A stretch of DNA of 64,000 bases, taken from Kineococcus sp. NBC_00420. GTDB lineage: Bacteria > Actinomycetota > Actinomycetes > Actinomycetales > Kineococcaceae. Positions 40,032 through 50,042 of this stretch are shown here, in pieces (within the stretch, counting starts at the first letter, position 1; each line of letters begins with the position of its first letter). Made by a program: the position numbers and the translations under genes. A model generated the notes under the pieces. That model saw only the letters and a list, made by a program, of their open reading frames with translations. It ran no database searches and had not been told where the DNA came from. Location: NCBI RefSeq assembly GCF_036021035.1, contig NZ_CP107930.1:4092001-4156000 (forward strand), in the 5' to 3' direction.

Positions 40032-40427
40032 TCAGGAACCCGTCGGGTACGGGTGATCGGCGTCGTCGGCGTAGCAGATGCCGAAGGGCTTGTTCGTGAT
40101 GAACAGGAACGTGCAGTCGTTGTCGGTGGCTCCGTGCTCCATCCAGCCGCCCTCGGGGAACCACACGAAGCTCCCCGGTCCGTGGTCCCCGGAGTGGGTG
40201 CGCAGCACCCCGTCGAGCACGAACATGCCGTGCGCGCAGGGATGGGTGTGCCAGACGTTGGTGAAACCCGCGGCGTAGCGCATGAGGAAGACCTGCATCC
40301 CGGTCTCGGGATCGTCGTGCAGCACCTTCGTCGGGATGCGGGCTCCGGTCTGCGGCACCGTGAACAGGTCCCAGGGCAGGGAACTGGTGTCGGTGGCGAG
40401 CACGTCGACCAGGTTGGTCGGGATCAT
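40032..40427 (-). CDS. Cupin-domain protein, last gene of the nitrilase cluster
   Basis: 131-aa single cupin. Metal-binding histidines are visible in WHTHPCAHGMFVLDG and GWMEHGATD, with the Gly-rich turn GPGSFVWFPEG between them. The ATG overlaps the stop of the glycosyltransferase (ATGA), so it belongs to the operon. It ends with YADDADHPYPTGS. It could be a small dioxygenase, isomerase or binding protein; the substrate may be an intermediate of the pathway. Confidence 0.82.
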   Translation of the reverse strand: MIPTNLVDVLATDTSSLPWDLFTVPQTGARIPTKVLHDDPETGMQVFLMRYAAGFTNVWHTHPCAHGMFVLDGVLRTHSGDHGPGSFVWFPEGGWMEHGATDNDCTFLFITNKPFGICYADDADHPYPTGS

Positions 40428-41512
40428 CGGGAACCTCCGGGGTGGGTGTCGGTCAAGCGGCGGTAGAGCTCGAGGTGGGTCCGTGCGGCGGCGGTCCAGG
40501 TGTGCCGGGCGGCCAGCTCCCGACCGCGAGCGACCCGGTCGGGATCCGGGGTCTCGATCGCGGACCGCAACGCCTGCGCCATCCCCGACGGTTTCGCCGC
40601 GAACAGGGCCGCCCCGTCGAAGACCTCCCGCAGCACGGGCAGTTCCCGGGTCACCAGCGGGACCCCGGCGGCCAGCGCCTCCATCGCGGCGAGCCCGAAA
40701 CCCTCCTTCGTCGACAGGAAACCCATGGCCGCTGCACCCGTTACCAGCCCCGGGAGTTCCTCCTCGTCCACGACACCCAGCACGACGGGGTCCACCCCGA
40801 GTTCCCCGGCGAGCCGGTCGAACCGCACGCGGTAGTCCCGGTGGTCGAACAACGTCTCGCCCCCGGCGATCACCAGCCGGACGTCGGGGAGCTCCTCCCG
40901 CAGCAGGGCGAGCGCCCGCAGCAGGTCGAGGCTGCCCTTGCGGGGTTCGATCCCGCCGACGGCGACGACGTAGCGACCGAACCGGTCCCGCCACCGTCCG
41001 GGGTCCGCGCGGGCGAACCGGGCGGAGTCGACCCCGTTGGGGATCACCGTCGCCGAGATGCCCCATCCGTCGGCGAGTTCCCGCGCCACCGCACCGGACA
41101 CGCAGACGTGCGCGAACGGTTCGACGATCGCCTTCTCGTGGCAGGTCACGAGCTGCGGGGTGGTGAAGGTGTCCAGGTGGTGGACGGTCCGCACGCAGCG
41201 CCCCACGGCGTTCGCGCTGATGCAGTCCTGGGCGTGCACCACGTCGTAGCCGGCCGGGTCGAACCCCGCGCGCAGCACTTCGATCGACCGGACGATCCTC
41301 TCCCCGACGTCCTCGCCGTCCCGCGCGGTGAACTCGACCACCCGGACGTCGACCCGGGGGTCCACCGGCCGGAAGAACGCCCGGTCGCCACCCCGGCCCA
41401 GCGTCCACACCGACACCTCGGCCCCGGCGGCGACGAGCGCCTCCGCCAGCGCGAGGGTGTGGACGACCCCGCCGCGGGGTTTCGTCGAGTACGTGGTGAG
41501 CGCGATCCTCAT
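40424..41512 (-). CDS. GT4 glycosyltransferase, MSMEG_0565 family
   Basis: 362-aa GT-B glycosyltransferase. Start MRIALTTYSTKPRGGVVHTLALAEAL; the donor-binding half has AVGGIEPRKGSLDLLRAL and the EX7E-type motif STKEGFGLAAMEALAAGVPLV. It corresponds to the glycosyltransferase (TIGR04047-type, MSMEG_0565) that accompanies nitrilase clusters of this kind. ATG shares one base with the stop of the flavin oxidoreductase gene. Substrate unknown; glycosylation of a cluster product is inference. Confidence 0.88.
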   Translation of the reverse strand: MRIALTTYSTKPRGGVVHTLALAEALVAAGAEVSVWTLGRGGDRAFFRPVDPRVDVRVVEFTARDGEDVGERIVRSIEVLRAGFDPAGYDVVHAQDCISANAVGRCVRTVHHLDTFTTPQLVTCHEKAIVEPFAHVCVSGAVARELADGWGISATVIPNGVDSARFARADPGRWRDRFGRYVVAVGGIEPRKGSLDLLRALALLREELPDVRLVIAGGETLFDHRDYRVRFDRLAGELGVDPVVLGVVDEEELPGLVTGAAAMGFLSTKEGFGLAAMEALAAGVPLVTRELPVLREVFDGAALFAAKPSGMAQALRSAIETPDPDRVARGRELAARHTWTAAARTHLELYRRLTDTHPGGSR

Positions 41513-42777
41513 CAGCGGACGGCGACCAGGTGACGCGCCGGGGACAGTTCCTGGACCCGGTCGGCGAGGAACTCCGCGTCCCGGGCCACCCCGGCGAACC
41601 GCCCGGAACCCCAGGTGTGCATCCACGGCAACCCGAGGAAGAACAACCCCTCGGTACCGGTGACGCCGCGGGTCTGGCGCGGTCGCCCCCGGCCGTCGAA
41701 CACGCCGAGCTCGATCCAGCGGTAGTCCGCCCGGTACCCGACGCTCCACACGATCGAGGTGACGCCGCTCGCCGCCAGGTCCAGGACGGTGACCTCCTGC
41801 TCCGGGTGCCACACCGGAACGTAGCGGGCCTGTTCGGGCGCCTCGATCCCGCGGGCGGCGATCCAGCGGTCGATGGAGTCCTTGATGCTCTCCGCCACCG
41901 CGTCGGCGTGGTCCAGCGCCCCGCCCAGCGTGGGCGCGAACGTGACGACCCCGTCGCGGACGTCCTCCAGCCGGCCGTGCAACCGCATGCCCTCCAGGGC
42001 GAAGGTCCGCAGGTCGATGTCCCGGCCACCGTCGCGGCCCGTCATGTAGTGGTTCGTCTTCTCCTGCGCGGCAGCACCACCGGGGACCTCGGTGGCGGAG
42101 ACGTCGTAGACGCCCATGTCCTCGAGCCAGGCGATGCAGTCCCGGCCGCGGTAGGTCCGGGCGCAGCGCGGGGCGTTGCCGACGGCGAGGTGGACGGTGC
42201 GCCCGGCCAGGTGCAGGTCCTCGGCGATCTGGGCCCCCGACTGCCCCGACCCGACGACGAGAACCGCCCCGTCGTGGAGTTCCGGGGAACCACGGTAGAG
42301 CGAGGAGTGCAGCTGCGCGATCCCCTCGGGAACCCGCTCGGCCGCCGCCGGGACGACGGGGAGGTGGTACCCGCCCGTCGCCACGACGACCTGCCGCGCC
42401 GTGAACTCCCCGGCGCTGGAGGCGACGTGGAAGAGCCCGTCGTCCTCGCGGGTCAACCGCGTCACCTCCACGTGCTCGCGCACCGGCGGTCCGAAACCGG
42501 CGGCGTAGGAGGTGACGAACCGGTGCACGTCGTCGCGGGGCATGAACCCGTCGGGGTCCTGACCACCGAACTCACCGGTGTAGGAGAACCCGGGGAGCCG
42601 GCACTGGAAGTTCGGGGTGACCAGGGTGAACGCGTCCCAGCGACCGTCGCGCCACTCGTGGCCGATCTCGTCGCGTTCCAGCAGGACGTGGTCGATCCCG
42701 CGCTGAACGAGGTGCCAGCTGAGCGACAACCCCGCCTGCCCCGCGCCCACGATGAGCACGTCGTGGTGTTCGGTCAT
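41512..42777 (-). CDS. Flavin-dependent oxidoreductase, MSMEG_0569 family (NitH-like)
   Basis: 421-aa FAD/NADPH monooxygenase-like protein. FAD motif VLIVGAGQAGLSLSWHL at the N-terminus, NADPH motif AVLVVGSGQSGAQIAEDL (about 170), and a C-terminal FFLGLPWMHTWGSGRFAGV. It resembles flavoprotein N-hydroxylating or Baeyer-Villiger monooxygenases. Member of the Nit1C set; its stop and start overlap both neighbours. Confidence 0.9.
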   Translation of the reverse strand: MTEHHDVLIVGAGQAGLSLSWHLVQRGIDHVLLERDEIGHEWRDGRWDAFTLVTPNFQCRLPGFSYTGEFGGQDPDGFMPRDDVHRFVTSYAAGFGPPVREHVEVTRLTREDDGLFHVASSAGEFTARQVVVATGGYHLPVVPAAAERVPEGIAQLHSSLYRGSPELHDGAVLVVGSGQSGAQIAEDLHLAGRTVHLAVGNAPRCARTYRGRDCIAWLEDMGVYDVSATEVPGGAAAQEKTNHYMTGRDGGRDIDLRTFALEGMRLHGRLEDVRDGVVTFAPTLGGALDHADAVAESIKDSIDRWIAARGIEAPEQARYVPVWHPEQEVTVLDLAASGVTSIVWSVGYRADYRWIELGVFDGRGRPRQTRGVTGTEGLFFLGLPWMHTWGSGRFAGVARDAEFLADRVQELSPARHLVAVR

Positions 42778-43070
42778 GACTCCTCCTGGGAGAGCGGGGG
42801 TTCGAGGGCGAGGACCCGGACCGTCCCCACCGTGCCGGCGGCACGGTCCTCGATGGCGGCGAGCTGGGCCACGGCCGAGGTGCAGGTCATCCCGAACTTC
42901 GCCCGGACCCGTTCGCCGGCCTCGGTCAGCGCCGTGCGGGCGCGGGCGGTGAACTCCTCGACGGTGTACTCGGCGCCGACCTCGAGGTGGTTGTGCACCA
43001 CGAGCGAGGGGGAGTAGCAGTGCTGGACGCCGCCGTCCGGCCACCGGACGCTGAACGTCATCTCAGGCAT
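42774..43070 (-). CDS. MSMEG_0570 family nitrogen-starvation response protein
   Basis: 98-aa protein. It begins MPEMTFSVRWPDGGVQHCYSPSLVVHNHL and has a central EFTARARTALTEAGERVRAKFG helix with a Cys near its end. This is the small protein of unknown function found only in nitrilase clusters of this type. ATGA overlap with the flavin oxidoreductase and an 8-bp overlap with the nitrilase. No known fold motif is visible. Confidence 0.85.
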   Translation of the reverse strand: MPEMTFSVRWPDGGVQHCYSPSLVVHNHLEVGAEYTVEEFTARARTALTEAGERVRAKFGMTCTSAVAQLAAIEDRAAGTVGTVRVLALEPPLSQEES

Positions 43071-43938
43071 GCGCCGGCTCCCGCACGAGGGCGCCGTACA
43101 CGTCCGGACGGCGGTCGCGCAGGTTGAACATCGCCCGCCGGGCCGCGTCGAGTTCCGCCTCGACGTCGACGTCCGCGGCGGCGACCCCGGCGCCCACCCC
43201 GGTGTCGGCCAGGACGTCACCGCCGGGCCCGACGACCTTCGCGCTGCCCACGAACCGCAGTGAACCGAACGTGCCGGCCTGGTTGGAGGCGACCCAGACC
43301 ACCTGGTTCTCCAGGGCCCGCGCCTGGTCGTAGAGGTCGAACCGCTTCTTCCAGCGGTCCTGCGCGAGGTCGGCCGCGGCCGCGGTCCGGGCCCCGGGCC
43401 AGGCGGAGATGCTGACGATGATCCGTGCCCCGTCGAGCGCCGCGGTGCGGGCGGCCTCCGGGAACGCCTTGTCGTAGCAGATCTGCAACCCGATCCGCCC
43501 GACCGGCGTCTCGAACGCCTCGAACGTCGAACCCGCCGCGTAGGAGAGGTTCTCGCCGAGGGGCTGGTGCACCTTGCGGTGCACCCCGAGGACGCCGTCC
43601 CCGGTCAGGGCGACCGCGGTGTTGTACCGGTCGGTCCCGCCGTCCTCGCAGATCCCGAGGACGACCACGACGTCGCGAGCCATCTCCTGCACCCGGCGCA
43701 GTTCCGGCCCGTCCAGAGCCAGGGCCGGTGGACCGGAACGCTGCCGCCGGGTCTCCGCGGTCCCGCGGTCCTCCGCGGAACCCAGGGAGGACAGGTACCC
43801 GCCGAGGCAGGCCTCCGGCAGGGCGATCAGTCCCGTGCCCTCCGCCCGGGCCCGCCGCAGCAACCGGTCGATGGTGGCGTAGGCGGCGTCGAGGTCACGG
43901 CCGAAGTTCTCGGCCACGGCAGCCAGTCTGGTTCTCAT
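43063..43938 (-). CDS. Nitrilase, Nit6803/Nit1C type (catalytically intact)
   Basis: 291-aa carbon-nitrogen hydrolase. The catalytic triad is complete: Glu42 in IALPEACLGGY, Lys122 in VHRKVHQP and the nucleophile Cys154 in LQICYDKAFPE. NQVVWVASNQAGTFG is the usual later motif. Enzymes of this subgroup hydrolyse nitriles to acid and ammonia; the cluster has been linked to cyanide assimilation in Pseudomonas. The gene overlaps the next by 8 bp and the preceding GNAT-AIRS gene by 4 bp. Confidence 0.93.
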   Translation of the reverse strand: MRTRLAAVAENFGRDLDAAYATIDRLLRRARAEGTGLIALPEACLGGYLSSLGSAEDRGTAETRRQRSGPPALALDGPELRRVQEMARDVVVVLGICEDGGTDRYNTAVALTGDGVLGVHRKVHQPLGENLSYAAGSTFEAFETPVGRIGLQICYDKAFPEAARTAALDGARIIVSISAWPGARTAAAADLAQDRWKKRFDLYDQARALENQVVWVASNQAGTFGSLRFVGSAKVVGPGGDVLADTGVGAGVAAADVDVEAELDAARRAMFNLRDRRPDVYGALVREPAHA

Positions 43939-45353
43939 GCGGTTCCCATTCCCGTCACGGTGCCCCGGATCACCGGGGTCACCTCTCCGTCGGGCCAGCG
44001 CAGCGAGACCCCGGAGGGTCCCGGCCGGAGGCGGCCGATCGTTCGTGTGGTGGCCGGTCCGGCGGGTGCCGGTGCCCGGCCGGGGGTGTCGGCGGTCAGC
44101 ATCCCGAACCCCGGGAAGCAGGTGAACCAGTCGCCGACGGTGGTCCCGGCCGGACGCGGCACGGCGGCGACGTCGATCTCGGCCGCGACCCCGCTCGCCT
44201 CCGCGAGCATCCCCGCGGTCCCGACGAGACCGGCCATGCTGACGTCCTTCGCGGCGGCCGGTGCGGTGCGGGCCACGAACGACCCCATCGCCCGCAGGTC
44301 GCCCGCGCGCCGCCAGGACGTGGAGTCCCACTGCGACCCCGCGTACCCCGGTCGCCAGTGGCCCTCGAGGTCCGCGGTCAGCGACAGGTCGTGCCCCGCC
44401 CGCCCCCCACCGGCCGGGACCGGGTGGTCGCTGCGCCCCAGCGCCGTCACCGACAGGGCCGCGGGAACCCCGAGCTGGGTGTGTCCTCCCAGGACCGGGA
44501 CCCCCCAGGCCTGCGACGCCGCCCGCAACCCGGCGACGATCTCGGCGGCGTGCTCCCGGGTCGGAGCCGCCAGCGCGTCCAGCAACCCGACGGGTTCGGC
44601 CCCCATCGCGGCGAGGTCGTTGACGTTCACGAGGACGGCGCACCACCCGGCCCACCGCGGGTCGCGGTCCACGAGCGAGGGCAGGATCGCGTCGCAGGCC
44701 GCGACGACGTCGGTTCCCGGTACCGGGGAACCGTCGTCCCCGCGGAACCCCATCGGAGTTTCGACGAACTCGGCCAGCAACCCCGCCAGGGCCGACTTCG
44801 TCGCGTCGGCCAGCCGTTGCGGGCGGTCCACCGGGTAGCGGACCAGCACGTGCGGAGTGCCCTGCACCTCGACGTCGCGGACCCGTTCCCACCCCAGCCG
44901 CCGGAACAGCACCGCGTTCGCGGCCTGGACCGTCGCCTCGAACCGCAGCGCGCCGAGGTCCTCGGCGTGGGCGCAGGCTGCCCGGACCAGCGCGGTCCCG
45001 ACCCCGCCGAGGGTGCGCGCACCGGCGGCCACGACGAGTCGGCTCCCGCGCCACCAGCCGACATCGGGTTCCGCGCACGGGGCCAACCGCACGCCACCCA
45101 CGACGGTCCCGTCCGGGGTCCGGGCCACCAGGACGCGGCGACGCGGGTCGTCGTCGGCCTCGTCGTGGTCGTCGAGGTCGAACAACTGCTGCTCCGCGAC
45201 GAAGACCTCGCGCCGCACCCTGCGGTACGCGGTCTCGGCCGCGGCGTCCGCGACCTCGACGTGGAACCTCGCGCGGGGCCGTGGGACCCCGGCGAGGACG
45301 GGCACGTCCGGCGCGGCGAGGAACTGGTGCGGGACGAGGTGCTCGAGGTCCAC
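43935..45353 (-). CDS. GNAT-AIR synthase fusion, MSMEG_0567/sll0787 family
   Basis: 472-aa two-domain protein. Residues about 28-170 form a GNAT acetyltransferase-like domain (FVAEQQLFDLDDHDEADDD, LGGVGTALVRAA). Residues about 180-472 form an AIR-synthase-like (PurM/ThiL/HypE fold) domain with NVNDLAAMGAEPVGLLDALA and PVLGGHTQLGVPAALSVTALG. In Nit1C clusters of Pseudomonas these are separate genes (nitE and nitF); here they are fused. The AIRS domain suggests ATP-dependent activation of an amide or similar group. Confidence 0.85.
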   Translation of the reverse strand: MDLEHLVPHQFLAAPDVPVLAGVPRPRARFHVEVADAAAETAYRRVRREVFVAEQQLFDLDDHDEADDDPRRRVLVARTPDGTVVGGVRLAPCAEPDVGWWRGSRLVVAAGARTLGGVGTALVRAACAHAEDLGALRFEATVQAANAVLFRRLGWERVRDVEVQGTPHVLVRYPVDRPQRLADATKSALAGLLAEFVETPMGFRGDDGSPVPGTDVVAACDAILPSLVDRDPRWAGWCAVLVNVNDLAAMGAEPVGLLDALAAPTREHAAEIVAGLRAASQAWGVPVLGGHTQLGVPAALSVTALGRSDHPVPAGGGRAGHDLSLTADLEGHWRPGYAGSQWDSTSWRRAGDLRAMGSFVARTAPAAAKDVSMAGLVGTAGMLAEASGVAAEIDVAAVPRPAGTTVGDWFTCFPGFGMLTADTPGRAPAPAGPATTRTIGRLRPGPSGVSLRWPDGEVTPVIRGTVTGMGTA

Positions 45354-45361
45354 CGGAACCC

Positions 45362-46441
45362 CTACGCGCCGAGGTTCTGCAGGACCGAGCAGGCGCCGCA
45401 GGCGGCGCAGCCGGCCATCTGGTCCGACCCGCGCATCCCCGCGGTCTGCAGCGCCTCCGCGACCCGGCGGGAGACGTCCGCCAGGACGGCTGGATCGGGT
45501 GCGGCAGCCCCGTCCTCGTCCACCGCGAGGGTGCCGGCCAGCGGCCGGAACGGGACGACGAACGGGTAGACCCCGAGCTCGACGAGGCGCTGCGCCCCGG
45601 CGACGAGTTCGTCCGGGTCCTCACCCAGCCCGACCAGCAGGTAGGTGGAGACCTGGTTGCGCCCGAACACCCGGACCGCCTCGGTCCACGCCGCCCAGTA
45701 CTCGGCCAGCGGGACGCTCGACTTGCCGGGCATCCACCGACGGCGGACCCCGTCGTCGAGGGACTCGACGTGGAGGCCGATCGACGACGCCCCGGCCTCC
45801 CTGAGCTCGGCGATCGTGGCGAGGTCGGCGGGGGGTTCGCACTGCACCTGGACCGGCAGTCCCGGAACGGCCTCCACGATCGCCCGGACGCACCGGGCCA
45901 GGTGCCGCGCCCCCCGGTCCGGTGCGGTCGAGGTCCCGGTCGTCATGACGACGTGCCTGACCCCGTCGAGGCGGACCGCGGCCTCCGCGACCTCGGCGAG
46001 CATCGCGGGGGTCTTGACCGCGATCGTCGCGCCGGAGTTCAGGGACTCCTCGATGGCGCAGAACCGGCAGCGGTTCTCCGGTGCGTAGCGGGAGCACGTC
46101 TGCACGACGGTCGTCGCGAGGACGTCCTTCCCGTGCAGCTTCGCGATCTTCTCGTAGTTCGTCCCGTCGGTGGTCTCCAGGTCGTAGAACCGCGGTCGCC
46201 GCACGGGCTCGACCTCGATGCCGAGGTCGGTGACCGACCCCATCCGCTCGATGAGCAACCGCCCGTCGTGGACGAGGTAGGGGCTGTCGGCGCGCCGGGG
46301 GATCGCGGAGGCGAACCCGTCCAGGACCACGTGGCCGTCGTCGCTGGGGCCGGCCCCACCCGTGCGGCGCACGGGCGTGGCCAGCCGGACACCCCGGATC
46401 GCGACGTCGGCACGCGTGGCGACCCTGTCCGGGCAGGACAT
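45362..46441 (-). CDS. Radical SAM protein, MSMEG_0568 family
   Basis: 359-aa radical SAM enzyme. The cluster-binding cysteines have unusual spacing: Cys116-x8-Cys125-x2-Cys128 (TCSRYAPENRCRFC), instead of C-x3-C-x2-C. A further triad Cys345-x2-Cys348-x2-Cys351 (GCAACGACS) at the C-terminus could bind a second Fe-S cluster. The barrel includes VVMTTGTSTAPDRG and EPPADLATIAELREAGA. Start ATG shares one base with the stop of the MSMEG_0572-type gene. The reaction is unknown. Confidence 0.9.
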   Translation of the reverse strand: MSCPDRVATRADVAIRGVRLATPVRRTGGAGPSDDGHVVLDGFASAIPRRADSPYLVHDGRLLIERMGSVTDLGIEVEPVRRPRFYDLETTDGTNYEKIAKLHGKDVLATTVVQTCSRYAPENRCRFCAIEESLNSGATIAVKTPAMLAEVAEAAVRLDGVRHVVMTTGTSTAPDRGARHLARCVRAIVEAVPGLPVQVQCEPPADLATIAELREAGASSIGLHVESLDDGVRRRWMPGKSSVPLAEYWAAWTEAVRVFGRNQVSTYLLVGLGEDPDELVAGAQRLVELGVYPFVVPFRPLAGTLAVDEDGAAAPDPAVLADVSRRVAEALQTAGMRGSDQMAGCAACGACSVLQNLGA

Positions 46442-46995
46442 CAGAGGTTGTAGGTCGAGTTGATGATCGCGCCCTTGCGGGCGTAGTGGATGAGGGCGTC
46501 CTGCACGTCGAGCGGGTGGCAGGGGATGACACCCTCGATGAGGTCCTCCTCGCGGTTGCCGTGCAGGGCGAGGCCGAAGCGGCAGCAGTAGACCGTGCCG
46601 CCCTCGGCGATGAACGTCGCCAGCGAACCGTTGATGTTCTGCTCACCCGGGAACCCCGAGTCCCCGACGGTCGGGAAACCGCGGGTGTCGATGCAGTTCA
46701 TCGCGCCGGGACCGTAGAAGTAGATGGCGGAGTCGAAACCCTTCCGCAGCGCCCGGGTGGCCTGCAGGACCGCGACGAAGCTGACCGACGACTCGTGGGC
46801 GATGCCGTGCACGAGGGTGAAGTAGGTCTCGCCACCCTCGGCCTGGTAGTCGGGGAACACCTTGGTGGAACCGTAGAGGTTCTCGCCCTTGGCCTTGCTC
46901 GGGTGCGGGACCTCGGCCAGCGACCTGGCGATGTTCGCCTCGATCTGCTCGTCGATCGCGGTGCCGGTGGTCGACGTCGTGGTGGTCGTGGTCAT
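46441..46995 (-). CDS. MSMEG_0572/sll0783 family nitrogen-starvation response protein
   Basis: 184-aa soluble protein. After a Thr-rich N-terminus it has VPHPSKAKGENLYGSTKVFPDYQAEGG, RKGFDSAIYFYGPGAMNC, GFPTVGDSGFPGEQNINGSL and GTVYCCRFGLALHGNREEDLIEG, with paired Cys in YCCRFG. The alternating beta/alpha pattern with conserved Cys resembles DsrE-like proteins (inference). It is the most diagnostic marker of this nitrilase cluster. Confidence 0.88.
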   Translation of the reverse strand: MTTTTTTSTTGTAIDEQIEANIARSLAEVPHPSKAKGENLYGSTKVFPDYQAEGGETYFTLVHGIAHESSVSFVAVLQATRALRKGFDSAIYFYGPGAMNCIDTRGFPTVGDSGFPGEQNINGSLATFIAEGGTVYCCRFGLALHGNREEDLIEGVIPCHPLDVQDALIHYARKGAIINSTYNL

Positions 46996-47005
46996 GTCTG
47001 GCTCC

Positions 47006-47842
47006 TCAGCCGTAGAGGGTGGAGTAGTTGTCCTGCAGGAACATCCGGACGAGTTCGGAGTTCCCCGAGGCCGCCTGCAGGCGAGCGAGCTCGCCCGCGT
47101 GGTCGCCCCACGGTTCGTCGCTGGCGAAGAGGACGCGGTCCGCGCCGACCCCTCGCCGTTCGATCTCCTGCGCGAGCCACCGGGGTGCGAAGCCGATGGC
47201 CCAGCTGGTGTCGGTGTAGACCTTCTTGCCGGCCTCGATCCAGTCGAAGAACCGGCCACCGATGAGTTTGACGTGGGCGCTCATCCCGCCGCCGAGGTGG
47301 ACGAGGTGGATGCGGACGTGGTCGCCGTAGCGCTCCACGAGCTTCCCCACCTCGTCGATGTCCGAGGCCGCACCGGGGGAGGTGTGCACGTGCACGACGA
47401 GGTTCCGCTCGCGGGCCGTGCCGAAGATCTTCTCGATCTGCGGTTGCGAGGTCGGGTCGTCCACACCGCCACCGAGCAGGAAGCTCGTCTTGAGCGCGAC
47501 CACCCCACGTTCCCCGGCCAGGGCCAGGGTGGCGTCGGTGAGCTCGGCGTCCTGGGCGCGGGGCGAGGTCCACAGCCCGCAGAGGAACCGGTCGTCCTTC
47601 GCCGCGGTCTCCAGGACCAGGTCGTTCAGGGCGAAGGACGCCGCCGCGACCGGGACGCCGTAGTTCGGCAGGAGGAGGGCCCGGGCCGTGCCCTCACGGT
47701 CGAGGTCGGCGAGCAGGTCCGCGATCTGGTCGCGGGCCGTGGTGTCGGGGTTGACCGGCGGACCCCCGTAGAAGGGGTACGCCGGCAACCGTCCGAGGTG
47801 ACGGTGCGCGTCGTACGTCGTGGTGCTCGGGGTGTTCGGCAC
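47006..47842 (-). CDS. Amidohydrolase-family metal-dependent hydrolase in the nitrilase cluster
   Basis: 278-aa TIM-barrel hydrolase of the amidohydrolase_2 type. Metal-ligand candidates: YDAHRHLG at the N-terminus (H-x-H would be canonical; here D-A-H-R-H), LVVHVHTSPGA and the His in VRIHLVHLGGG, and the distal Asp in VLFASDEPWGDH. Start GTG 47842. It is not part of the commonly described Nit1C set. It lies directly behind the GlnR-like box, so it appears to be the first gene of the regulated operon; it could process an amide or acid product. Confidence 0.8.
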   Translation of the reverse strand: MPNTPSTTTYDAHRHLGRLPAYPFYGGPPVNPDTTARDQIADLLADLDREGTARALLLPNYGVPVAAASFALNDLVLETAAKDDRFLCGLWTSPRAQDAELTDATLALAGERGVVALKTSFLLGGGVDDPTSQPQIEKIFGTARERNLVVHVHTSPGAASDIDEVGKLVERYGDHVRIHLVHLGGGMSAHVKLIGGRFFDWIEAGKKVYTDTSWAIGFAPRWLAQEIERRGVGADRVLFASDEPWGDHAGELARLQAASGNSELVRMFLQDNYSTLYG

Positions 47843-47865: not shown

Positions 47866-47881
47866 GTTTCGTGCTGGTTAC
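47866..47881 (-). promoter_or_regulatory. GlnR-like box GTAAC-n6-GAAAC
   Basis: Minus strand GTAAC-CAGCAC-GAAAC, an exact match to the GTnAC-n6-GaAAC half of the actinobacterial GlnR consensus. It lies 24 nt before the amidohydrolase GTG, between that gene and the degenerate nitrilase. It suggests nitrogen-stress control of the cluster. Confidence 0.6.
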
Positions 47882-47894
47882 ACCTGGAACACGT

Positions 47895-48737
47895 TCAGGT
47901 TTCGTACACGTCGCTGCGCCGCTCGTCCAGGTGGTGCAGCGTGCGCCGCGCCCGGGCGACCTCGGCCTCGACGTCGACCTCGACCGCGGCCAGCCCGCCC
48001 TTGGACCCCGTCCGGGCCAGGACGTCGCCCCCGGGGCCGACGACCTTGGCCTGACCGAGGAAGCGGAGCGAGCCGTGCATGCCGGTCTGGTTCGAGGAGA
48101 TCCAGACGACCTGGTTCTCCGCCGCCCGGGCGCAGTCGTAGAGGTCGAAGAGGCGCGACTGGCGGTCCTGGGGGAGCCGTGAGGCACGGTCGGTCACGCT
48201 CGCCGGCCAGGCGGACAGGCAGGCGATGGCCTGCGCGCCCTGCAGGGCCAGGGTGCGCGCGGCCTCGGGGAAGGTCTTGTCGAAGTCGATGAGCATCCCC
48301 AGCCGGCCGACGGGGGTGTCGAACGCGGCCAGCCGGTCACCCGCCGCGTACAGCTCCGCCTCACCGGGCGGCAGGTGGACCTTGCGGTGGCGGCCCAGCA
48401 CCCCGTCCCCGCTGAGGCAGACCGCCGCCGGGTGCTGCACGGGGGTGCCGTGGACCTCCTCGACCTCGGTGTAGCCGAGGCACACCGTCAACGGTCCGCA
48501 CGCCTGCCGCAGGAGCTCGAACACGGGGTCGTCCGCGGCCAGGGCCGGGGGGACCTGCGCGGAGTCGATGTCCACGAGGTCCGGCAGGTAGCCGCCCAGG
48601 GTGCCGTGCGGCAGCACCAGCAGGTCGGTCCGGGACGCCCGCGCCTCGGCGACGATCCCCAGCGCCTTCGCGAGACCGCGCTCGAGGTCGGGGCCGAAGT
48701 TCGCGGCCACCGCCGCGACGCGGACGGGGTGGGACAC
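47895..48737 (-). CDS. Nitrilase-fold protein with lost catalytic Glu and Cys (pseudoenzyme)
   Basis: 280-aa paralogue of the cluster nitrilase, alignable over its whole length. The catalytic Glu is His44 (VLPHGTLGGY instead of ALPEACLGGY) and the nucleophile Cys is Asp151 (LIDFDKTFPE instead of QICYDKAFPE); only Lys119 (HRKVH) remains. The rest is well kept, including NQVVWISSNQTGMHGSLRF and a C-terminus ending RRSDVYET. The reading frame is intact and codon use normal, so it is maintained as a protein. It may be a regulatory or structural subunit of the nitrilase, a sensor, or a hydrolase with changed chemistry. GH125 lies 15 nt upstream. Confidence 0.85.
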   Translation of the reverse strand: MSHPVRVAAVAANFGPDLERGLAKALGIVAEARASRTDLLVLPHGTLGGYLPDLVDIDSAQVPPALAADDPVFELLRQACGPLTVCLGYTEVEEVHGTPVQHPAAVCLSGDGVLGRHRKVHLPPGEAELYAAGDRLAAFDTPVGRLGMLIDFDKTFPEAARTLALQGAQAIACLSAWPASVTDRASRLPQDRQSRLFDLYDCARAAENQVVWISSNQTGMHGSLRFLGQAKVVGPGGDVLARTGSKGGLAAVEVDVEAEVARARRTLHHLDERRSDVYET

Positions 48738-48752
48738 GTCAGGAACCCGGCG

Positions 48753-50042
48753 TCAGTCGAACGCGGCGACGTGCTCGCCCAGCAACGACAGCGCGAGCTC
48801 GCAGAACATCGAGTCGGCCCAGGAGAACCACTCCCGCGTCCACTGCGAGGGGTCGTCGACGTGGAAGCCCTCGTGCACGTGCAGGGTCCCGTCGTCGGTG
48901 TCGGCGATGAGCTGCAACGTCGCGACGCGCTCGTCGGGGTCGCCGCTCGTCAGGGCCTGCACGGCCAGCGAGATCGGCCAGACGTAGCGGTCGGGGGTGT
49001 GCGGGCTGCCGATCCCGGTCGCCGCGGTCCCGCGGTGGAACCACGGGTTCGCCTCGCTCAGGACGAGGGCCCGCGTCGCGACGTAGAGCGGGTCGTCGGG
49101 CGCGCACGCGCCCAGCAGGGGCAGCGACAGCAGGCTGGGGGTGTTCGCGTCGTCGGCCAGCAGGACGCCGCCGAGACCGTCGACCTCGTAGGCCCAGACC
49201 CGTCCGTGCACCGGGTGCTCCACCACCCCGAACTCCTCGACCCCCGCCCGCAGTTCCGCGGCCAGCGTCTCCGCGTCCGCGGCGAGCGCGGGGTCGTCGA
49301 ACACCTCGCGGGCGAACGTCCCGACGTGGTCGAGGGCCCGGGCGGCGAAGAGGTTCGCCGGGACGTTGTAGCCGTACTCGCAGGCGTCGTCGCTGGGCCG
49401 GAAACCCGACCAGGTCATGCCCGTGCGGCCGAGCGGGGTCCCGAGACCGTCCCGGTCGAGGGTCTCGCTGCGCTCGTCGGTGGGGCGCACGAAGCGGTAG
49501 GGGGACTTCTCCTCGTGGTCCTGCTCGAGGCGCCACTGGTCGACGATCGACCGGCAGGCCGCCGCCGCGTCGTGCCCGAGGACGTCGTCGCGGCCGGTCG
49601 CCCGGCGCAACCGGTGGGCGAGCAGCACCGGGAAGGCCAGGGAGTCGACCTCGTACTTGCGTTCCCACAACCAGGGGTCGTCGCCGAGGTCGCCCGGTTC
49701 GTGGCAGGCGCCCGTCGGGCCGTCGTTGAAGGCGTTGGCGTAGGGGTCGTGGACGATCGAGGTGAACTGGGTGCGCAGCACCCCCGCGATGACGTCGGCC
49801 AGCGCCGGCGCCCGGTCCAGCAGCAGCAGGTACGCCTGCCACTGCGCGGTCGAGTCCCGCAGCCACATGGCCGGGATGTCGCCCGTCACGACGAAGACGG
49901 ACCCGTCGGGCCGCAGGGTCGGGGTGCGGTCGACGGTCTCGCGCAGGGCCCGGGCGAACATCGCGCCCACCCGTTCCCCCGCGCGGCGCGAGACCTCTGC
50001 GCTGAGGTCGTCCACGAGGCCTTGCGGCAGCAGTTCGCTCAC
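48753..50042 (-). CDS. GH125 exo-alpha-1,6-mannosidase
   Basis: 429-aa glycoside hydrolase family 125 enzyme with family motifs GDIPAMWLRDSTAQWQAYL, YANAFNDGPTG, WERKYEVDSLAFP, RPSDDACEYGYNVPAN and SWADSMFCELAL. GH125 members remove alpha-1,6-linked mannose from glycans. No signal peptide, so it acts in the cytoplasm on imported oligosaccharides. It has its own leaderless-type -10 overlapping the ROK kinase stop. Confidence 0.92.
   Translation of the reverse strand: MSELLPQGLVDDLSAEVSRRAGERVGAMFARALRETVDRTPTLRPDGSVFVVTGDIPAMWLRDSTAQWQAYLLLLDRAPALADVIAGVLRTQFTSIVHDPYANAFNDGPTGACHEPGDLGDDPWLWERKYEVDSLAFPVLLAHRLRRATGRDDVLGHDAAAACRSIVDQWRLEQDHEEKSPYRFVRPTDERSETLDRDGLGTPLGRTGMTWSGFRPSDDACEYGYNVPANLFAARALDHVGTFAREVFDDPALAADAETLAAELRAGVEEFGVVEHPVHGRVWAYEVDGLGGVLLADDANTPSLLSLPLLGACAPDDPLYVATRALVLSEANPWFHRGTAATGIGSPHTPDRYVWPISLAVQALTSGDPDERVATLQLIADTDDGTLHVHEGFHVDDPSQWTREWFSWADSMFCELALSLLGEHVAAFD

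Follow-up and report, generated by a model that had tools for sequence, protein, structure and literature searches.

The CN-hydrolase (nitrilase) superfamily (PF00795) has been described as sharing a single Glu-Lys-Cys-Glu catalytic centre, together with a dimer interface called the A-surface (PMC4700190). The locus examined here has the same radical SAM, GNAT, AIR-synthase-like, flavoprotein, small protein and Sll0783 genes as the Nit1C cluster (PMC1199592, Podar et al. 2005; Pseudomonas nit1C, PMC11049912). It differs from that cluster in that its CN-hydrolase is not of the Nit6803 family and in that a second, altered paralogue is present, which the accessible parts of these reports do not mention. 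This paralogue represents a widespread clade with Asp at the nucleophile site and no general-base Glu, strongly selected alongside a triad-complete paralogue, and it is a further component of a cluster with an unsolved pathway.

A related system is the gpr operon of Mycobacterium smegmatis (MSMEG_0565-0572), a tractable laboratory organism; the operon is under GlnR control and makes nitrogen-starved cells resistant to peroxide (PMC6039565). The gene families and their order are the same in one genome of our comparison (G130, locus L230), except that no small 0570 gene was detected in it. Going by gene order and by the numbers in the family names, rather than by the sequence of MSMEG_0566 itself, MSMEG_0571 corresponds to the triad-complete CN-hydrolase of our locus (NIT) and MSMEG_0566 to the altered paralogue (PAR). 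Nitrogen limitation induces MSMEG_0566, whose annotation is aliphatic amidase (PMC4617892, PMC4222082). MSMEG_0566 has been proposed to contribute to nitrogen assimilation, and the missing Cys goes unremarked in the accessible portion of that report (PMC6039565). If the assignment by gene order is true, it corrects the 'aliphatic amidase' annotation from which nitrogen release by the gpr operon was suggested. An active enzyme accompanied by a conserved, catalytically altered paralogue is likewise found in trypanosome AdoMetDC (PMC6221367), although the fold is unrelated and a complex of PAR with NIT is a proposal here.

Two CN-hydrolase genes in a Nit1C-type cluster

The window analysed is a 64,000-nucleotide stretch of the genome of Kineococcus sp. 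NBC_00420, which is a single contig of 5.43 Mb. Nine genes run along its minus strand from position 48737 down to 40424, with PAR first (47895..48737) and a glycosyltransferase gene last. The second, AMH (47006..47842), encodes an Amidohydro_2 family protein (PF04909, 70 bits) that is conserved in related clusters, and its start was chosen at the GTG at 47842. Next come genes for an MSMEG_0572/Sll0783 family protein (46441..46995; TIGR04044, 245.8 bits, cut-off 109.85), an MSMEG_0568 family radical SAM protein (45362..46441; TIGR04043, 520 bits, cut-off 303.7), and a GNAT and AIR-synthase-like fusion of the MSMEG_0567 family (43935..45353; TIGR04050, 479 bits, and TIGR04045, 105 bits, both above cut-off). 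NIT (43063..43938) is followed by an MSMEG_0570 family small protein (42774..43064; TIGR04042, 118 bits, cut-off 79.85), an MSMEG_0569 family flavin-dependent oxidoreductase (41512..42780; TIGR04046, 643 bits, cut-off 498), and the MSMEG_0565 family glycosyltransferase (40424..41533; TIGR04047, 453 bits, cut-off 260). The radical SAM, GNAT, AIR-synthase-like, flavoprotein and Sll0783 family neighbours typical of Nit1C clusters all score above their NCBIfam cut-offs.

NIT carries a complete triad (Glu42, Lys122 and Cys154), but it reaches only 34.3 bits with the model for Nit6803, or subfamily 1, nitrilases (TIGR04048, cut-off 502.6). Judged by this profile, it is a member of another CN-hydrolase branch rather than of the Nit6803/Nit1 family. 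The 'active cluster nitrilase' of a preliminary description of this DNA is therefore right as to the triad but should read 'triad-complete CN-hydrolase', and hydrolysis of nitriles by NIT is an assumption. Selenocysteine read-through of MSMEG_0571 has been proposed in the gpr report (PMC6039565). Across the clusters, 86 NIT genes stop with TGA and five with TAG, a mix that, on the sequences collected, speaks against such read-through as a general feature.

The PAR frame is intact, with a GTG start, a TGA stop and 280 codons for amino acids, and the protein aligns end to end with NIT at 52% identity over 283 columns, as had been claimed. It matches the Pfam CN_hydrolase profile PF00795 with 101.5 bits (cut-off 23.2), and its predicted fold (pLDDT 93.6) is the alpha-beta-beta-alpha fold of the superfamily, the CN-hydrolase match spanning the whole length. 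The top PDB matches to the model are all CN hydrolases. The nearest solved folds among those listed are the amidase PH0642 (1j31, and its Cys-to-Ala variant 6ypa) and N-carbamoylputrescine amidohydrolase (5h8i), and the fit to 6ypa extends over 255 residues with an rmsd of 1.7 (VIA Z 35.5). With these proteins PAR shares the full-length fold, the Lys and the second active-site Glu, which lies in the loop after the Lys and is present as Glu126.

The catalytic triad itself is not conserved in PAR. His44 (codon 48606..48608), Lys119 and Asp151 (codon 48285..48287) align with Glu42, Lys122 and Cys154 of NIT, with the catalytic Glu, Lys and Cys of PH0642 in 1j31, and with the same sites in 6ypa. 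The replacements at the general-base and nucleophile sites, and the retention of the Lys, are thus as first described. No NCBIfam model reaches its cut-off with the PAR of the window, and a scan of 20 PARs, with cut-offs given for the first member only, produced matches only to general CN-hydrolase models. Because Cys is lacking in all 106 members of the family described below, we class PAR as fold-related and not as a nitrilase or amidase enzyme. It fits the term pseudoenzyme in the sense of a conserved homologue of an enzyme family that lacks key catalytic residues. Our search of the open-access literature found nothing relevant on pseudoenzymes of the nitrilase superfamily, and no test of the job of this family was found in the literature.

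Residue signature and history of the PAR family

The pooled loci contain 212 distinct homologues, split evenly at the nucleophile site between Asp (106) and Cys (106). The Cys-type proteins have Glu-Lys-Glu-Cys without exception. Among the Asp-type proteins (PARs), Asp151 and Lys119 are present in 106 of 106, and Glu126 in 105, with Asp in the remaining one. Site 44 is Asp in 91 of them, Gly in eight, His in six and Gln in one, and it is never Glu. Gln193, Leu196 and Ala206 are invariant as well (n=106), at sites that in NIT are mostly Trp, Arg and Leu. As read from these alignments, the family signature is Asp/Gly/His/Gln-Lys-Glu-Asp, mostly Asp-Lys-Glu-Asp, and the His-Lys-Asp combination of the window is a genus-level form. 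The altered paralogue of the preliminary description is thus found elsewhere, but the His44 of its 'H-K-D variant' is confined to the genus of the window.

PAR occurs in five congeners at 70-84% identity with the same His-Lys-Asp residues; identity is 75% at the locus of Kineococcus rubinsiae and 58% in a genome of another family. Scanning named genomes added some 50 PARs, from Microbacterium, Curtobacterium, Clavibacter, Rathayibacter, Frigoribacterium, Cellulomonas, Promicromonospora, Janibacter, Quadrisphaera and other genera. In a record titled Streptomyces sp. NP160 (L094), the PAR of the cluster and its NIT both fall in close groups with those of Quadrisphaera, so the name may be wrong. 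In a maximum-likelihood tree, all PARs form one clade (support 94/86) that adjoins the cluster NITs and requires one Cys-to-Asp change, and a wider quick tree recovers the clade with a support of 92. On these trees, PAR arose once, by an old CN-hydrolase duplication and a single Cys-to-Asp change of the nucleophile.

Two of the three triad residues are changed, as might happen if a second nitrilase gene had suffered point damage or begun to decay in this genome alone. However, the congeners with PAR have the same residues and lack the normal Glu-Lys-Cys, and the Cys-to-Asp change is fixed family-wide. The ratio dN/dS is roughly 0.03-0.2 for the PAR pairs compared (NG86), similar to NIT, although dS is saturated in wider pairs. 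A truly decayed copy looks quite different: the congener G002, which is without the cluster radical SAM gene, has only a PAR-like fragment left at a contig end (L016). Given these conserved homologues, local decay is rejected. Neither of the two outcomes that the preliminary description named as refuting it was seen: close relatives also lack Glu-Lys-Cys, and the paralogue is present in other such clusters. As judged from substitution rates and conservation, PAR is a real protein family under purifying selection, in agreement with the earlier view of a gene selected rather than decaying.

Conservation of the pocket, a helix and a loop

Site entropies of PAR and NIT were compared in 57 matched genomes. 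For the pocket-lining positions, which were picked from the general layout of the superfamily, the mean entropy is 0.19 in PAR and 0.21 in NIT. The most conserved stretch of PAR is the helix 192-208, with an entropy of 0.12 compared with 0.51 in NIT; a window scan was done for this helix, and the random-site control gave 0.002. Outside the pocket and this helix, PAR is more variable than NIT. From what is generally known of the superfamily, this helix would belong to the dimer (A) surface. Such a pattern would be unexpected of a dead relic and would be expected of binding or chemistry in the pocket or of a fixed interface. It is this tight conservation of the pocket and one helix, along with Asp in all 106 relatives, that marks PAR as a selected family.

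One reading of the conserved pocket is that PAR is an active enzyme with new chemistry, in which an Asp151-Lys119-Glu126 centre, with Asp as base or nucleophile, acts on another intermediate of the pathway. These three residues and the trio at 193, 196 and 206 are invariant or nearly so, the pocket is conserved as much as that of NIT, and one genome has PAR without NIT. However, the general-base site accommodates Asp, His, Gly and Gln alike, and the solved neighbours among the matches listed are Cys enzymes or Cys mutants thereof. We know of no enzyme of the superfamily with an Asp nucleophile, and we consider this reading a serious rival, though an unlikely one. More specifically, an active Asp151-Lys119-Glu126 group might perform Asp-based chemistry in the unsolved Nit1C/gpr pathway or form a Glu126-promoted isopeptide crosslink between Lys119 and Asp151, a rather improbable proposal. 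Pilin-type isopeptide domains use the same trio of Lys, Asp and Glu.

The loop after the GGY motif (52-68) behaves in the opposite way to the helix, with an entropy of 0.44 in NIT and 1.46 in PAR across the 57 matched genomes. It corresponds to 'region 1' of the C-surface in the spirals formed by nitrilases (PMC4700190), and PAR had been suggested to cap such a filament. Conservation of this region in NIT together with its variability in PAR could indeed mean that PAR caps or breaks a NIT spiral. In most PAR-associated NITs, region 1 is longer as well as more conserved, but the pattern is lineage-dependent. Over all homologues the loop lengths overlap, many NITs being as short as PAR or shorter, and spirals of NIT would themselves be hypothetical. 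The cap proposal finds no general support in these data and is very unlikely.

Gene neighbourhood and the possible role of PAR

Nearly all PARs sit in Nit1C-type clusters, across Actinomycetota, so the paralogue that had been reported from a single locus recurs widely in such clusters. Close matches were present in 50 genomes of a class-wide sample of 395, where PAR and NIT calls were assigned by score and the sequences were checked for part of the genomes. Both types occur in 33 of these, NIT only in 16 (about a third of the 49 genomes with NIT) and PAR only in one of the 34 genomes with PAR. In an order-wide sample, 16 of 18 genomes have both. NIT without PAR is also found in G001, of the same genus as the window. 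The exception with PAR only is G804, in which an intact PAR (L215, 8342-9205) lies outside any Nit1C cluster; neither a NIT-type match nor the Nit1C radical SAM gene was found in that genome. PAR, then, accompanies NIT often but not always.

Within the clusters, PAR most often lies between the flavoprotein and glycosyltransferase genes, with a glycosyltransferase as neighbour in 65 of 78 clusters, the flavoprotein in 60 and NIT in 10. Seven genomes from several families have PAR directly after NIT, with the PAR start 3-9 bases beyond the NIT stop codon or with an overlap of 4-10 bases, and an eighth has the same order with a 24-base gap. This close spacing fits co-translation of the two frames. 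Most of the PARs in this tandem belong to one deep PAR branch in the wider quick tree, so the arrangement may be left over from the duplication. We also considered a dependence of PAR on the MSMEG_0569-type flavoprotein, which was rejected: the clusters of G799 and G425 keep PAR without an MSMEG_0569 match, and in G425 the gap holds another FAD-protein-like frame. In clusters without PAR (L205, L208 and similar, family f106), a different FAD oxidoreductase apparently replaces the MSMEG_0569 type. Five distant Nit1C-like clusters from other classes (L234-L238) carry the radical SAM gene, but a CN-hydrolase of the PAR or NIT kind was not found in any of them; AMH is present in four of the five, and this amidohydrolase may take the place of the nitrilase in such clusters.

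Hydrolysis of amides and nitriles in this superfamily needs a thioester acyl-enzyme, and without Cys the standard route is closed. For this reason we favour, with a confidence slightly short of even, the reading that PAR is a selected pseudoenzyme paralogue serving as a non-hydrolytic partner subunit of NIT. PAR, which probably can no longer form the thioester, would most likely pair with NIT across the conserved A-surface, a step that we infer from the features below. Such pairing would stabilise NIT, tune it or gate it, much as a dead 'prozyme' paralogue does with its enzyme, and PAR could possibly bind the same ligand as NIT in its altered pocket. The points for a partnership, all indirect, are the gene coupling, the co-occurrence and the conserved helix. 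PAR also shares the GlnR-type nitrogen-starvation cluster with NIT, and in the congener without the cluster (G002) just the decayed PAR fragment is left. The points against it are the NIT genomes that lack PAR (16 of 49, and G001), the PAR without NIT in G804, the rarity of NIT as a neighbour of PAR, the possible origin of the tandem as a duplication relic, and the fact that PAR and NIT differ at about half of the sites of helix 192-208.

Some of the same observations would suit a PAR that acts alone as a ligand binder (a sensor, a carrier or a protector of a labile intermediate), using the old pocket and forming no stable complex with NIT. The pocket is conserved while the general-base site varies, the usual neighbours are the flavoprotein and glycosyltransferase genes and not NIT, and PAR persists in G804. 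The presence of NIT in 33 of the 34 genomes with PAR and the tight coupling of the two genes in several families argue the other way, and we give this possibility, a serious rival too, a low probability. Co-evolution as judged by tree matching was not used as evidence for the NIT partnership, since the signal failed in subgroups. The partial r between PAR and NIT is 0.63 overall, and NIT ranks first as partner in 99.9% of subsamples. The value is however -0.06, the signal being gone, without the Micrococcales-type group, and in Micrococcales-type clusters the flavoprotein and glycosyltransferase genes score above NIT.

A perfect GlnR-box-like site (GTAAC-N6-GAAAC; 47866..47881, minus strand) lies between the PAR and AMH genes, and the same motif precedes the first cluster gene in G004, G006-G009, G018, G268 and G799. 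In congeners that have PAR at the far end of the cluster, PAR is downstream of the box. In the window, PAR is upstream of it and starts 15 bases past the stop of the preceding gene (48753-50042), which belongs to an apparent sugar-use operon. With this arrangement, transcription of PAR in this genome may be separate from that of the GlnR unit.
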